The notes under the pieces: generated by a model
Databases searched by the model: none
What the model was told of the DNA's origin: nothing
The model's input: the letters and a program-made list of their open reading frames with translations, nothing else
From: Actinoallomurus bryophytorum
GTDB lineage: Bacteria; Actinomycetota; Actinomycetes; Streptosporangiales; Streptosporangiaceae
Direction of reading: 5' to 3'
DNA: 64,000 nucleotides
NCBI RefSeq assembly: GCF_006716425.1
Contig: NZ_VFOZ01000001.1
Span: forward strand, 186,001-250,000
Program-made: the position numbers and the translations under genes
Shown: one piece after another, positions 58,929 through 64,000 of the stretch
How the letters are laid out: each line of letters opens with the position of its first letter
Position numbering within the stretch: position 1 is the first letter of the stretch

Positions 58929-60353
58929 ATGTTCAGCAGCGCCGGCGAGGTCCTGAATTACATCAAGGACGAAGGGGTGCAGTTCGTCGATGTCAGGTTC
59001 ACCGACCTGCCGGGCACGACGCAGCACTTCACGTTCCCTGTGGAGAACTTCGGTGAGAACGTGTTCACCGATGGCCTGATGTTCGACGGGTCCTCCATCC
59101 GTGGTTTTCAGGAAATCCACGAATCGGACATGCTGTTGCTGCCGGACCCGACGACGGCTGTGATCGATCCGTTCCGCCAGCACAAGACCTTGAACCTCAC
59201 GTTCTTCGTGCACGACCCGCTGACCGGCGAGGCGTACACCCGTGACCCGCGCAACGTCTCCCGCAAGGCGGAGGACTACCTGCGTGGCACCGGCATCGCG
59301 GACACGGCGTTCTTCGGTCCCGAGGCGGAGTTCTACATCTTCGACGACGTGCGCTTCGAGACGAGCCAGCACGAGTCGTACTTCCATATCGACTCCGTCG
59401 AGGGCGCCTGGAACACCGGCCGCGCCGAGGACGGCGGCAACCTCGGATACAAGCAGCGCTACAAGGGCGGCTACTTCCCGGTGCCGCCGATGGACCACTT
59501 CACCGACCTGCGCTCGGAGATGGTCCGGCAGCTCATCGCGTCGGGCGTCGAGACCGAGATGCAGCACCACGAGGTGGGCACCGCCGGGCAGGCCGAGATC
59601 GACATCAAGTTCGACTCGATGTTGAAGATGGCCGACAAGCTGATGCTCTACAAGTACATCGTGAAGAGCGTCGCGCGGCAGGCGGGCAAGACGGTCACGT
59701 TCATGCCGAAGCCCATCTTCGGTGACAACGGCTCCGGCATGCACTGCCACCAGTCGCTGTGGAAGGACGGCTCGCCGCTCTTCTACGACGAGGTCGGCTA
59801 CGCCGGTCTGTCGGACATGGCCCGCTACTACATCGGCGGCCTGCTCAAGCACGCGTCCTCGCTGCTGGCCTTCACGAACCCGACGGTGAACTCCTACCAC
59901 CGCCTGGTCCCGGGCTATGAGGCACCGGTCAACCTGGTCTACTCCCAGCGCAACCGCTCGGCCTGCGTCCGCATCCCGATCACCGGCTCGAACCCCAAGG
60001 CCAAGCGCCTGGAGTTCCGCGTGCCGGACCCGTCGGCCAACCCGTACCTCGCCTTCCCTGCGATGCTGATGGCCGGCCTGGACGGCATCAAGAACAAGAT
60101 CGAGCCGGCGGAGCCGGTGGACAAGGACCTGTACGAGCTGCCGCCGGAGGAGGCCCGCAGCGTCCCGCAGGTGCCGGGTTCGCTGGACGCGGTGCTCAAC
60201 TCTCTCGAGGCCGACCACGACTACCTCCTCGAGGGCGGCGTGTTCACGCCGGACCTCATCGAGACGTGGATCGCCTACAAGCGCGAGAACGAGCTGGACC
60301 CGATCCGCCTCCGCCCGCACCCGCACGAGTTCGAGATGTACTACGACTGCTGA
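58929..60353 (+). CDS. glnA: Glutamine synthetase type I
   Basis: 474 residues. ATP and glutamate-site blocks are visible: [51 protein letters not shown] and the NRSACVRIP loop. The adenylylation tyrosine is Tyr402 in [11 protein letters not shown], so activity is likely controlled by GlnE. It makes glutamine from glutamate and ammonia. ATG 58929 has an ideal AAGGAGG ribosome site. Transcription is probably activated by GlnR through the four boxes upstream and ends at the hairpin at 60359. Confidence 0.98.
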
Positions 60354-60358
60354 CCCGG

Positions 60359-60396
60359 AAAGGCGCGCTGACCTCGCAAGATGTCAGCGCGCCTTT
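60359..60396 (+). terminator. glnA terminator, overlapped by the integrase gene end
   Basis: Perfect 14-bp arms AAAGGCGCGCTGAC (60359-60372) and GTCAGCGCGCCTTT (60383-60396) with a 10-nt loop, ending in TTT, five nt after the glnA stop. The integrase stop codon (60384-60386) lies inside its right arm. Confidence 0.88.
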
Positions 60397-61559
60397 CGCG
60401 TGTTCCGGCCCTGTTCCGTCCGGGCACTGAGGACCGCATCGACGGCCTCGCGCGTGGACTCGTCCTTGTCGGGCCACAGGTGCCCGTACGTGTCGAGCGT
60501 GGTCTTCGCCGAGGCGTGCCGCAGACGGGCCTGGACCACCTTCACGTCGGCGCCCGAGGCGATCAGCAGCGACGCGAAGTAGTGCCGCAAGTCCTGGAAG
60601 CGGAAGCCGGCCGGGAGCCCGTCGACCTTCCCGCGCGCCGTACGGAACGCGCGCTCCAGCCTCCACGGCTCCAGCTGGCCGCCGCCCGGTTCGGCGGTGA
60701 GCACCGTCGCCGCCGGCCACTCCGCGACGTGCGGCGCGAGATAGTCCGTCGCGAGCGACCTCGAGATCGGCACCGACGCCCGTGACATCTCCGTCTTCAG
60801 CGGCTCGGCCGGGAACTGCACGGCCGGATGGACGATCCCACGCATGAAGTCGACGTCCTCGACGTGCAGGCCGCACGCCTCGGCGATCCTCAGGCCCACG
60901 AACGCGCCGAGGAGGATCGACGCCTGGTAACGCTCGGGCATGGCCTCGTACAGAGTCCAGATCTGCTCTGTGGTCGCGACGTACGCACGCTGCTTGCCGG
61001 CCCCGGGCGACGTGTACCGCGAGCAGGGACTTCGGGGAATGATCCCGTCCCGCACGGCGTCGGACATGATCTGCGAGAGCCGGGAGTGGAGCGCGTAGAC
61101 GTAGGAGTCTGCGAGCGGCTGCTTCTCCCCCGACCTCAGCGTCCTCCCCTCGGCGCGTAGCCGGGCCGTCCATGAGCGGATCTGCGACGGCCGGACGGCC
61201 GACAGCGGGAGCGGGCCGAACTCGGCCTTGATCTGTGCGACGTGCGTACGGGCCTGCCGCACGGTCGACTTCCGCCGCGTCGCGTAGCCCGTGAGCCATG
61301 TGTCGCACCACTGCTCGACGGTCGTTCGGGCGACCTTCGGGTCGACGTATACGCCGCGGAGCGTGTCCGCTTCCATCGCCGTGCCGTGCTTCTCGGCGTC
61401 GGACTTCTTCTCGAAGGCTCGGCTCGCTTCCTTGCCGTCCGGGCCGATCCAGATCGCAAGCCACCGCTTCGCGTCCTTACTGCCGCCGTTGTCCGGGTGT
61501 CGGGAGGTCTTCCGCCGAGGCCTCGAGGTGGTCCACCACAGATCCTTTACGCGCGCCAC
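60384..61559 (-). CDS. Tyrosine recombinase (phage-type integrase)
   Basis: 391 residues. An AP2-like arm-binding N-terminus (WLAIWIGPDGKEASRAFEKKSDAEKH) precedes a SAM-like core-binding domain (TTVEQWCDTWL) and the catalytic domain with Arg in GLRIAEACGL, DLRHYFASLL (His-x-x-like box), LRHASAKTTLDTYGHL (His and nucleophile Tyr). GTG 61559 has GAGGAG seven nt upstream and lies four nt after the regulator's stop, so the two genes form an operon. The stop codon sits in the glnA terminator, which suggests the attachment site is there. Confidence 0.94.
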   Translation of the reverse strand: MARVKDLWWTTSRPRRKTSRHPDNGGSKDAKRWLAIWIGPDGKEASRAFEKKSDAEKHGTAMEADTLRGVYVDPKVARTTVEQWCDTWLTGYATRRKSTVRQARTHVAQIKAEFGPLPLSAVRPSQIRSWTARLRAEGRTLRSGEKQPLADSYVYALHSRLSQIMSDAVRDGIIPRSPCSRYTSPGAGKQRAYVATTEQIWTLYEAMPERYQASILLGAFVGLRIAEACGLHVEDVDFMRGIVHPAVQFPAEPLKTEMSRASVPISRSLATDYLAPHVAEWPAATVLTAEPGGGQLEPWRLERAFRTARGKVDGLPAGFRFQDLRHYFASLLIASGADVKVVQARLRHASAKTTLDTYGHLWPDKDESTREAVDAVLSARTEQGRNTRKAR

Positions 61560-61563
61560 GGCC

Positions 61564-62070
61564 TTACTCCTCGGCCTGTAGGTCGCCGAGTCCGCGGCGC
61601 TCCAGCTCGGCCAGCCGCGCCTGGCGCTCCGGAGCGCTGTCGACCGGGATCGGCCGGTTGGTGGGCGGCGTCCACTCGAACTCGGGGACCTCGCTGAAGT
61701 AGTCGCGTTCGCTCGGCGCCTCGGCCGTGCCGGACAGCGGGTGGTAGCCGCGGATCCATTCGCGCGTCCGGCCGGCTCGGACGTTGGTCGCGGGATACCC
61801 GGTGTTGTCATCATCGATCGGCACCAGCAGATGGACCGGAGCGACGTTCAGGGCCAGGGCCAGGACGACCAGCTCGTCAACGGTGACGTCTCGCGTCCGC
61901 TGACCGTCCTTCGGGCGTCCCGTCTCGATGTTCGACAGCGTCGCCGCACTGAGGTGCGGCATCCCAAGTTCTGCGCACCGCGTCGCCAGGTCGCGCGCCT
62001 TCATGCCCCGCTTGTTGCGGACTTCCTTGACGCGTACCGCCACGATCTCGCTCACCTCGTGATTCAACAT
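61564..62070 (-). CDS. XRE-type helix-turn-helix regulator of the element
   Basis: About 168 residues. The N-terminal Cro/C1-type helix-turn-helix (KEVRNKRGMKARDLATRCAE, then HLSAATLSNIETGR) is followed by VTVDELVVLALALNVAPVHLLVP and a C-terminal region of unknown role. Start is uncertain: ATG 62070 lies inside a palindrome, GTG 62043 has GAGGTGAG upstream, and GTG 62091 has nothing. It probably represses the divergent excisionase-replication genes and its own operon with the integrase. Confidence 0.87.
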   Translation of the reverse strand: MLNHEVSEIVAVRVKEVRNKRGMKARDLATRCAELGMPHLSAATLSNIETGRPKDGQRTRDVTVDELVVLALALNVAPVHLLVPIDDDNTGYPATNVRAGRTREWIRGYHPLSGTAEAPSERDYFSEVPEFEWTPPTNRPIPVDSAPERQARLAELERRGLGDLQAEE

Positions 62071-62165
62071 ATCGTTGAATCTACCAGCCACATTGACAAC
62101 GGTCTAGCACTACTGGGAACCTACGGGTAGTCAACGTTTCGACGTCTCGACACAACGAATCGTTG
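62062..62165. promoter_or_regulatory. Paired operator palindromes in the element's control region
   Basis: ATTCAAC-N5-GTTGAAT (62062-62080) and CAAC-N5-GTTG (62153-62165) share the core CAAC-N5-GTTG and the half-site ATCGTTGA. A weaker CAAC-N5-GACG lies at 62132-62144. They flank the divergent starts of the XRE regulator and the excisionase gene, as expected for a repressor switch. Confidence 0.65.
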
Positions 62166-62185
62166 AGTAGTGAACGGGAGCCCAG

Positions 62186-62374
62186 ATGGACGAAAAGCAC
62201 CTGACCCCCGAGGACCTCGCCGAGCGTGTCGGCGTCCCGGTGAAGACGATCTATGGATGGAACTCGCGCGGCGATGGCCCGCGGTACATGAAGATCGGCC
62301 GTCACGTGCGCTACAGGCTGGCCGACGTCGTGACGTGGGAGAACTCCCGGTACGCGGGAGCCGCGGCCCGGTGA
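62186..62374 (+). CDS. Excisionase-like MerR/AlpA helix-turn-helix protein
   Basis: 62 residues: HLTPEDLAERVGVPVKTIYGWNSRGDGPRYMKIGRHVRYRLADVVTWE is a complete winged helix of the Xis/AlpA type. It likely directs the integrase toward excision and may activate transcription. ATG has GGGAG six nt upstream. Its TGA overlaps the next gene's GTG. Confidence 0.9.
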   Translation: MDEKHLTPEDLAERVGVPVKTIYGWNSRGDGPRYMKIGRHVRYRLADVVTWENSRYAGAAAR

Positions 62375-62610
62375 CCACAGACACGAAGGCCCGGTCCCCA
62401 CGGCAGGGAACCGGGCCAGACGAAGACGATCAGCCGGGCGGGCATCACGCTGACCAGAGCGTACCTCGCCTCGATGACGTTCGCCCGCCAGTGCTGCGGG
62501 CCTGGGCCTCGGCCTGCTGGCACCTCGCCGACGTCGGCGTGCGCCCGCTACCACCGCGGTACGTCGAAGCGGCACTTCGACGTCGGGGGTGGTGGCCCCG
62601 TGACGAGTGA
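62371..62610 (+). CDS. Small hypothetical protein of the element
   Basis: 79 residues from a GTG overlapping the excisionase stop as GTGA. A charged disordered head (TTDTKARSPRQGTGPDEDDQ) precedes a short helical part (PPVLRAWASACWHLADVGVRPLPPRYVEAALRRRGWW). No family recognised. It overlaps the next gene by 11 nt, so the three genes are probably cotranscribed. Confidence 0.65.
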   Translation: MTTDTKARSPRQGTGPDEDDQPGGHHADQSVPRLDDVRPPVLRAWASACWHLADVGVRPLPPRYVEAALRRRGWWPRDE

Positions 62611-64000
62611 GCCAGACGGTCCGCTGATCGCCGATATCGACGCCGAGCGCGCGGTGCTCGGCGCGTGCATGACCTCGGCCGCGGCTGTCGAGCGGGCCAT
62701 CGACGTCCTCGACGGCTCGGACGACTTCGTGCGGCCCGCACACCGGATGATCTGGCGGGCGCTGGTCGACCTCACCGTGACCGGCCGACCGACCGACCCG
62801 GTAGTCCTGCGGGACGAACTGCGACGCCGCGGCGAGATCGCGCGTGTGGGCGAGGGCGCCTACCTCGCCGAGCTGTACGCCGTCGCGCCGCCGGGTGTGG
62901 AGATCGAGTATCACGCGGGCATCGTCGCCGGACTCGGCACGCGCCGCCGCGCGCTGGAGGTCGTCGAGCACGCCCGGCAGCGGCTGCAGAGCCCAGAGGC
63001 GGACGCGGCCGAGGTCGTCACCGACGTCATCGCCGCCCTCGATCTGACTCGACAGGAGCGCGCGGGCGCACTCGGCGGGCCGGAGTTCATCCTCCTCGAC
63101 GACTTCCTCGCCGTGGAGGATGAGCCGGCGTTCTACCGCGTTGACGGTCTCTGGCCGGTCGGTGGCCGGATCGTGGCCGCCGCACAGTTCAAGGCCGGGA
63201 AGACGACCATGCGGGACAACGTCGTGCGGGCCCTGGTCGACAAGGAGGAGTTCCTCGGCGCGTTCAGCGTCACCCCGCCCGAGGGCCGCGTCGTCATCAT
63301 CGACAACGAGCTCGACGAACGCATGCTCCGCCGCTGGCTCCGCGATCAGGGCATCGTGAACACCCGGCAGGTGGCCGTCCTGTCGCTGCGAGGGAAGGTC
63401 GGCACGTTCGACCTACGCGACCGCGCCGGCCGGGCCCGCTGGGCGACGAAGCTCCGCGCCATCGAGGCCAGCGTCGTCATCCTCGATTGCCTCCGCCCCG
63501 TCCTCGACGCGCTCGGCCTGAGCGAGGACAAGGACGCCGGACAGTTCCTCGTCGCCTTCGACGCACTCCTCGATGAGGCCGGCGTGTCCGAGGGCCTGGT
63601 GAACCACCACATGGGCCACAACGGCGAACGCTCCCGAGGAGACAGCCGCATCCTCGACTGGCCCGACGTCACGTGGCGCCTCGTACGCGAGAAAGGCGAG
63701 GACGGCGAGACGCTCGCCGACGCGCGCCGCTACTTCTCCGCGTACGGCCGCGACGTCGACGTACCCGAGGGCCTGCTGACCTACGACCAGCCGCACCGAC
63801 GCCTCCTGCTCGCCGGCGGCACGCGCCGAGAGACCGCGGCCGATGCCGTGATCCCGGACATCCTCGACTACCTCACCGGGAACCCGGGCGCGTCCGGGCG
63901 CGCCGTCGAGTCGGCGCTGAGCCCGCACCCGCATAAGCGGCTCGACGTCCGTACGGCGCTCCGCCGGGCCATCGGACAGGGAAAGGTCGACACGGCGGAG
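62600..64000 (+). CDS. Replication-type protein: DnaB N-terminal domain fused to RecA-like ATPase, 3' end beyond window
   Basis: 467 codons are open from GTG 62600 to the window end without a stop. Residues about 11-125 match the DnaB N-terminal helical domain (DIDAERAVLGACM, then RPAHRMIWRALVDL, then GEGAYLAELY). From about residue 180 a RepA/AAA_25-like ATPase begins, with Walker A AAAQFKAGKTT, Walker B ASVVILDCLRP and VNHHMGHNGERSRGDSRILDWPDVTW near the end of the core. It is probably the element's replicative helicase or initiator. No primase motif is seen in the visible part. Confidence 0.85.
   Translation, partial: MTSEPDGPLIADIDAERAVLGACMTSAAAVERAIDVLDGSDDFVRPAHRMIWRALVDLTVTGRPTDPVVLRDELRRRGEIARVGEGAYLAELYAVAPPGVEIEYHAGIVAGLGTRRRALEVVEHARQRLQSPEADAAEVVTDVIAALDLTRQERAGALGGPEFILLDDFLAVEDEPAFYRVDGLWPVGGRIVAAAQFKAGKTTMRDNVVRALVDKEEFLGAFSVTPPEGRVVIIDNELDERMLRRWLRDQGIVNTRQVAVLSLRGKVGTFDLRDRAGRARWATKLRAIEASVVILDCLRPVLDALGLSEDKDAGQFLVAFDALLDEAGVSEGLVNHHMGHNGERSRGDSRILDWPDVTWRLVREKGEDGETLADARRYFSAYGRDVDVPEGLLTYDQPHRRLLLAGGTRRETAADAVIPDILDYLTGNPGASGRAVESALSPHPHKRLDVRTALRRAIGQGKVDTAE

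Follow-up and report, generated by a model that had tools for sequence, protein, structure and literature searches.

A probable phage satellite resembling phage-inducible chromosomal islands at the 3' end of glnA in Actinoallomurus bryophytorum

Introduction

Phage-inducible chromosomal islands (PICIs) carry the integrase and a master regulator on one strand and the excisionase with a replication module on the opposite one, as laid out in the part of PMC6092414 used here. Actinomycete integrative and conjugative elements (AICEs) encode Rep proteins of the types RepSA, RepAM (DUF3631) and Prim-Pol and integrate in the vast majority of cases at the 3' end of a tRNA gene, according to the corresponding section of PMC3218068. 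A 2023 survey of actinobacterial prophages suggested that small elements may be satellites (PMC10023795, in part). Here we describe an element of 10.67 kb at the 3' end of glnA in Actinoallomurus bryophytorum, which begins in a stretch of 64,000 nucleotides ("the window"; contig NZ_VFOZ01000001.1, positions 186,001 to 250,000) and extends beyond its right end. Besides a control region and a replication gene, it encodes two small proteins, o78m and o94, which are homologous to head-module proteins of siphophages. We consider it probable that this is an integrated PICI-like phage satellite of an actinobacterial integrase lineage directed at glnA, and not an AICE.

With the PICIs, as far as the consulted part of PMC6092414 describes them, the element shares the order of integrase and regulator against excisionase and replication genes, a specific attachment (att) site and the feature that no terminase, portal or major capsid gene was found. 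That part gives a typical size of around 12-15 kb, a soft criterion, above the 10.67 kb found here. Unlike a PICI, the element has a Rep that fuses DnaB_N to AAA_25, two head-module homologues and no recognised phage-interference gene. The PICI att site is never occupied by a prophage in the same account, whereas elements with TerL, portal and capsid genes also occur at glnA, several of these occupants being incompletely classified. Capsid-forming PICIs and the candidate Mycobacterium PICIs, in the portions of PMC10690885 and PMC10654092 drawn on, find a parallel in two glnA relatives, genome G528 and viral contig L023, that have TerL, portal and capsid genes together with a related integrase and excisionase; by contrast, the own capsid, portal, connector and terminase genes of capsid-forming PICIs were not found in the element here. 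The words glnA and glutamine are absent from the main text of PMC10654092. MulchRoom and MiniFlayer, from Streptomyces, are likewise actinobacterial satellites, and MulchRoom encodes a GntR-type HTH protein besides its tyrosine integrase. In the available sections of PMC10690885 the two possess complete gene sets for capsid and packaging, with no evident replicase, the reverse of the element here. PICIs, capsid-forming PICIs, the candidate Mycobacterium PICIs and MulchRoom/MiniFlayer have thus all been published, and neither a glnA-directed satellite nor a glnA-directed AICE appeared among the matches listed for the open-licence literature, as far as its available parts extend. Because the size lies below the soft range, o78m and o94 are head homologues, TerL-portal-capsid elements share the glnA site and dependence on a helper is presumed, we call the element PICI-like and do not class it as a PICI.

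Xis-like and GntR proteins are features of AICEs, and DUF2637 and GntR genes are common on actinomycete conjugative elements. An AICE such as pSAM2 has in common with the element a tyrosine integrase and its own Rep (PMC3218068, in part), besides Xis-like and GntR proteins. Unlike AICEs as that part presents them, the element yielded no FtsK or Tra gene in 21 of 21 gene models, sits at glnA instead of a tRNA gene and has a DnaB_N+AAA_25 Rep, RepSA not having been searched with a model of its own. AICE identity was rejected, since neither an FtsK domain nor a tRNA site nor a Rep of AICE type was found; a sister element in genome G275 nonetheless has AICE-type replication genes. The terms DUF2637 and transfer gene were not found in the text of PMC8584621.

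Results

The left attachment core, attL, is formed by the 27 nt that end glnA, stop codon included (60327-60353). A search of the right end of the window against the host genome (9.47 Mb in three contigs; the window is G000:C1:186001-250000) located an exact second core, attR, at 70993-71019 on the window scale, 10,666 bp from attL and outside the window, so that 60327-64000 is the in-window portion of the element. Window coordinates equal positions in the 17.2-kb extended locus L009 plus 58799; no further core copy was present within L009 with up to 9 mismatches allowed, and ARAGORN predicted zero tRNA genes in the window or in L009. The core restores the glnA codons and stop, and the reading frame stays intact; judged by these letters, the integration is precise. 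A chance direct repeat was ruled out, as the 27 bp are exact and lie at glnA, and five other loci are arranged alike with their own glnA letters. An earlier note on this DNA had proposed an integrative element at the 3' end of glnA, with a span of 60384..64000 that takes in just its left third. The exact repeat bears the proposal out, and both checks the note had suggested, a far-side repeat of the glnA end and an uninterrupted chromosomal order in relatives, gave positive results, the latter in two same-genus genomes.

An 18-nt inverted repeat at 60358..60397, supplied by the element, begins four bases past the glnA stop and overlaps the end of the integrase gene. It folds at -36.1 kcal/mol (z -5.15; none of 200 shuffles equally stable) and is likely a shared terminator for the convergent glnA and integrase genes. 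The longer hairpin beyond attR (71052-71094; -60.7 kcal/mol, z -6.62) is apparently the original glnA terminator.

Neither Rep (E 1e-20) nor the integrase (E 1e-70) had a match in the seven other same-genus genomes sampled. Comparison of the glnA neighbourhood in six of them (G002 was left out) revealed an uninterrupted order glnA-HAD-OsmC in G006 and G003, the HAD-like and OsmC-like genes being those that lie past attR here. The 27-bp core occurs unchanged in G006 and at 96% identity in G003. Different genes separate glnA from the HAD/OsmC block in G001, G005 and G007; in G004 other genes follow glnA and the contig stops without reaching the block. Between attR and HAD/OsmC in the present genome lies an MFS transporter gene (71114-72331; L009 12315-13532) with no match in the six neighbourhoods. 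Therefore, the site has been altered more than once, by a separate gain or loss.

The genes o78m (64379-64615, plus strand; small, membrane-type by eye) and o94 (64628-64912, plus strand) are 12 bp apart. The o94 protein is 63%, 57% and 51% identical to proteins of the viral contigs L095, L096 and L097, and a profile search of 373 class genomes gave three matches, namely the own genome, G416 and G074. In all five foreign loci the order is capsid gene, one further small gene, o94 homologue, head-tail adaptor; of the six loci seen, the own element alone has it outside a phage head module. Searching annotated phage records with tblastn returned nothing at E 0.01, and therefore the relatives of o94 rest on IMG/VR contigs and genome loci. 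A homologue of o78m is located between TerL and the portal gene in six of seven phage contigs (L095, L096, L097, L099, L100 and L125). It was not detected in the seventh, L124, where a similar-sized small open reading frame (ORF) near the portal gene does not align. PHROGs identified both TerL and the portal in L095, L096 and L097, and TerL also in L124 and L125, whose portal was recognised by similarity. In L099 and L100 both genes were assigned by similarity, in the case of TerL to L095; L097 and L098 are the same prophage contig and were counted once. The portal-to-capsid block that the two genes flank in phages is missing here. From its neighbours in phages, o94 is perhaps a capsid-associated or decoration-type small protein. 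Psu is the capsid decoration protein of the satellite P4. This satellite-encoded small protein that joins the capsid is our proposed analogy for o94 (PMC11718236, in part); unlike Psu, o94 is similar to a gene of phage head modules, and the two satellites differ in control and integration.

The gene models were produced by a home-made codon-usage script rather than a standard gene finder. On the minus strand lie the tyrosine integrase of 391 aa (60384-61559; PF00589, 1.3e-17; phrog_1, 1.5e-50) and an XRE/HTH_31-type regulator of 168 aa (61564-62070; Pfam 5.2e-5, under the cut-off; phrog_8, 6.1e-7), presumed to be the repressor. Opposite them on the plus strand are an excisionase-like HTH_17 protein of 62 aa (62186-62374; PF12728, 7.5e-11; phrog_66, 1.5e-8) and Rep, in which DnaB_N is fused to an AAA_25 ATPase by Pfam (532 aa; 62600-64198, the 3' end outside the window). 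The control region between them (62061..62165) contains two palindromes with the common half-site CAAC/GTTG, one of 21 nt with 8-nt arms at 62061-62081 and one of 13 nt at 62153-62165. They are presumed operators and are moderately unusual only, as a 6-nt arm occurred in 43 of 300 shuffles and a 7-nt arm in 10 of 300. A scan of L009 1500-3900 for sigma-70-type promoters found none. The earlier note had described just this opposition of strands, which we confirm. It had likened the order integrase-repressor/excisionase-rep to that of phage-inducible islands and of some AICEs: the former likeness stands, the gene order being of PICI type, and the latter is not supported, with no FtsK/SpoIIIE domain found in the gene models and another kind of Rep.

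The regulator is 43-44% identical over 88-108 aa to genes adjoining related integrases in G275 and G304, and the excisionase-like protein, over 57 aa, is 77% identical to its counterpart in G275 and 70% to that in G304. Residues 12-497 of Rep share 53% identity with an Actinomadura litoris element protein that likewise combines DnaB_N and AAA_25; a tape-measure-like gene lies close to it. DnaB-like genes of mycobacterial prophages are similar to Rep as well (47-49%), and the ATPase part of Rep shares 57% identity with that of a protein encoded on the Rhodococcus plasmid pDJL3. This 15.9-kb 'plasmid' (L031, NZ_CP025962.1) is annotated with an integrase, a terminase, a tape measure and the Rep-like ATPase, and its appearance is rather that of a phage satellite or phage-plasmid.

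Integrase matches at E 1e-70 were obtained in 8 of the 297 genomes sampled from the family and in 10 of the 393 from the class, the own genome in both; these genome searches scored few first-pass candidates per genome, so that misses are possible. The integrase adjoins glnA in 12 of the 16 other matched genomes, four of seven in the family sample and eight of nine in the class sample (G174, G097, G309, G031, G624, G434, G618, G447, G362, G528, G425 and G367), and lies elsewhere in G275, G195, G304 and G398. The glnA site, which the earlier note had thought unusual for AICEs, is therefore the common site of this integrase lineage. An adjoining integrase was also found on L023, the viral contig with TerL, portal and capsid genes; four other viral contigs stop close to the integrase, so adjacency is unreadable there. 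Integrase fragments lie beside glnA in three of 29 further glnA loci (G009, G047 and G049). We assign the integrase here to what we name the glnA-3'-end lineage, that is, related integrases whose gene end abuts the 3' end of glnA. On the integrase tree of 26 rows, from which locus L016 is absent as it gave no match, use of glnA takes 6 changes, a figure equalled or undercut in 24 of 500 shuffles, and a single glnA integrase clade is unsupported. The glnA-adjacent element in G031 (L086 5351-9918; G031:C86) encodes an 889-aa ATPase-like protein, with a weak match to the topoisomerase II large subunit (phrog_543), beside a 633-aa orphan.

Exact repeats near the integrase were sought in 17 loci. 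Repeats of the glnA end bound elements in G434 (27 bp, 10.4 kb), G528 (31 bp, 9.95 kb), G425 (26 bp, 14.8 kb) and G618 (19 bp, about 16 kb) and a 2.9-kb remnant in G174 (28 bp), and the letters of each core track the host's own glnA. The G528 element encodes TerL, portal, major head protein, Ad1 and Hc1, TerS not having been sought there, and the G434 and G425 elements carry a terminase-small-subunit-like gene. At glnA in G624 no repeat was found; a tape-measure-like gene and a minor-tail/TerS-like gene are present. Directly past attR in G434 lies a 45-aa integrase fragment (L116 12291-12425), read as a trace of a previous glnA occupant. In G309 (L085; G309:C19), where the integrase beside glnA is interrupted, a 22-bp piece lies 3.9 kb off, and a second copy of glnA, longer but also incomplete, lies about 13 kb off; the locus may hold decayed tandem or recombined elements. 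By its control genes the element of G275 is the closest sister, with 77% identity in the excisionase, 63% in the integrase and 43% in the regulator. It occupies another site, between 16-bp repeat copies about 9.2 kb apart, and along with GntR and DUF2637 it contains a lone capsid gene (Phage_capsid). Of its nine Pfam-scanned proteins (excisionase left out), none matched an FtsK model above the cut-off, the DUF2637 protein matching FtsK gamma at E 0.031, below it.

Four tandem repeats of (T)GCAGGTCAGGG were found at 67554-67648 (0.56 matches expected; 0 of 200 shuffles reach 4). They comprise four full copies of the octamer GCAGGTCA, in the non-coding stretch between o281 and the right part of the element and far from the cores; near-matches stand beside both cores here (by eye). 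In 7 of 13 loci (G434, G174, G618, G624, G447, G362 and G528) the octamer, on either strand, lies on the attL side about 37-45 bases past the core start, the starts in G624, G447 and G362 being estimates based on the stop codon of glnA. On the other side it stands about 50 bases ahead of attR in G434, G528 and G425, and it is not at the attL-side place in G425, nor at that place in G275, G367, G097 and G031. The core-proximal octamer is likely an integrase arm site, and the array may serve as an origin or in regulation.

Overall, the integrase-regulator pair facing excisionase and Rep is followed by small genes, GntR and DUF2637. Ten collinear genes from the excisionase gene to o281 have intact frames, and seven of the nine junctions overlap or measure at most 29 bp, the other two being 101 and 225 bp. 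Next to Rep lies a 63-aa ORF, o63 (64185-64376, plus strand), with weak matches in L091 and L122. Downstream of o94 on the same strand are o136, o190, o97, o85 and o281 (136, 190, 97, 85 and 281 aa; 64900-67390, collinear), of which o281 has an HELGH motif. The right part holds a DUF397-like gene and two small orphans (67992-68790, minus strand), the GntR-type regulator (68878-69123, plus strand; PF00392, 2e-18), a four-gene cluster including DUF2637 (69182-70552, minus strand; PF10935, 4.9e-8) and a small ribbon-helix-helix-like ORF with every Pfam match under the cut-off (70688-70858, plus strand). Pfam on all 21 gene models and PHROGs on 20 gave no assignment to FtsK/Tra, terminase, portal, capsid or lysis functions. 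The own genome was the sole one of 250 family genomes to match o190 or o281, and o281 had no match in viral contigs, phages, plasmids or PDB sequences. The candidate assignment of o136 as a portal C-terminus (E 0.072 in one search) was dropped, phmmer having found nothing, and defence cargo was rejected, as PADLOC matched none of ten proteins.

Discussion

Based on the gene content, we propose a cycle for the element. Infection by a helper phage would cause the XRE repressor to leave its operators, and Xis and Int would then excise the element. Rep would replicate it, perhaps acting at the GCAGGTCA array, and the DNA would be packaged in the particles of the helper, whose capsids could be stabilised, tagged or redirected by the element's own o78m and o94 copies. 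In this sense we infer that the element is active, depends on a helper and is packaged by it.

Several observations weigh against a satellite. Recognised terminase, packaging and lysis genes are absent, five genes (o136, o190, o97, o85 and o281) have no clear homologue, and the role of o94 is inferred from gene position. The G+C content of the element (70%) is no different from that of the window, and the palindromes taken alone are weak evidence. The HxxR position of the integrase is Q here, in the repeat-bounded G434 and in G362, and H in 21 of the 26 rows, the pattern not fitting in two. The DUF2637 and GntR genes are known from conjugative elements too, and the G275 sister also has Prim-Pol and DUF3631, replication genes of AICE type. 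Finally, the own genome yielded neither a TerL of phrog_9 (one TerL family; the control matched in 4 of 14 genomes) nor a capsid gene of the L095 type (a search without positive control). A resident helper was rejected on these two results, and therefore the helper would probably come from outside.

The rival explanations overlap, and one of them shares its origin in part with the satellite that we favour. The element could be what is left of a capsid-forming satellite or prophage from which portal, capsid and terminase were deleted, with o78m and o94 at the deletion ends. The two genes flank the portal-to-capsid block in phages and have collapsed to 12 bp here, a complete TerL-portal-capsid element exists within the lineage in G528, and integrase fragments lie beside glnA in G009, G047 and G049. 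However, random deletion would rarely spare both genes whole: their frames are intact, with ribosome-binding-like sequences (by eye), within an unbroken ten-gene run, and the integrase, excisionase, rep and both cores are intact as well. We regard such a remnant as unlikely, though the strongest of the competitors.

Somewhat less likely still is an AICE-derived integrative element conjugated in trans, comparable to an integrative and mobilizable element. The GntR and DUF2637 genes of the right part, common on actinomycete conjugative elements, fit this origin. So do the Prim-Pol and DUF3631 genes of the closest sister, in G275, which are AICE replication types in the cited section of PMC3218068 and because of which we raised our estimate slightly. 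Yet the FtsK/SpoIIIE domain is found in 0 of 21 gene models by Pfam, no tRNA site is involved, the own Rep is DnaB_N+AAA_25, and relatives, the G275 sister among them, have phage morphogenesis genes. A domesticated or inactive island, retained because its orphan genes serve the host, would account for five collinear genes without clear homologue and for a helper not having been found; but recombination genes, replication genes and att cores are intact, o190 and o281 were each found in one of 250 family genomes (the own), and rep and integrase, at the thresholds used, in none of the seven other same-genus genomes. The element therefore looks recent rather than kept, and we consider domestication improbable.

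A sequence-based guess has become an element with known ends and a named site of insertion, and this points to glnA as a recurrent landing site of satellites in actinobacteria. Going further, we tentatively suggest, with more doubt than confidence, that the 3' end of glnA is a long-lived, actinobacteria-wide dock for one chassis (integrase-XRE and excisionase-rep) that swaps virion modules. The modules would be a whole head in G528 and L023, a TerS-like gene only in G434 and G425, a tape measure in G624 and, in the close sister at another site, a lone capsid gene (G275), cut down here to o78m and o94, which would tag or stabilise the capsids of a phage with an L095-type head. If such swapping is true, one integrase and control chassis would reveal the minimal virion gene sets that a satellite can carry. 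The o78m-o94 pair would predict that the helper is a siphophage whose capsid protein is fused to a protease, as in the L095 type.

As a separate observation, the satellite-sized elements L016, L019, L031 and L115 have a long tape-measure-like gene (in L019 by eye), which is odd in small elements.

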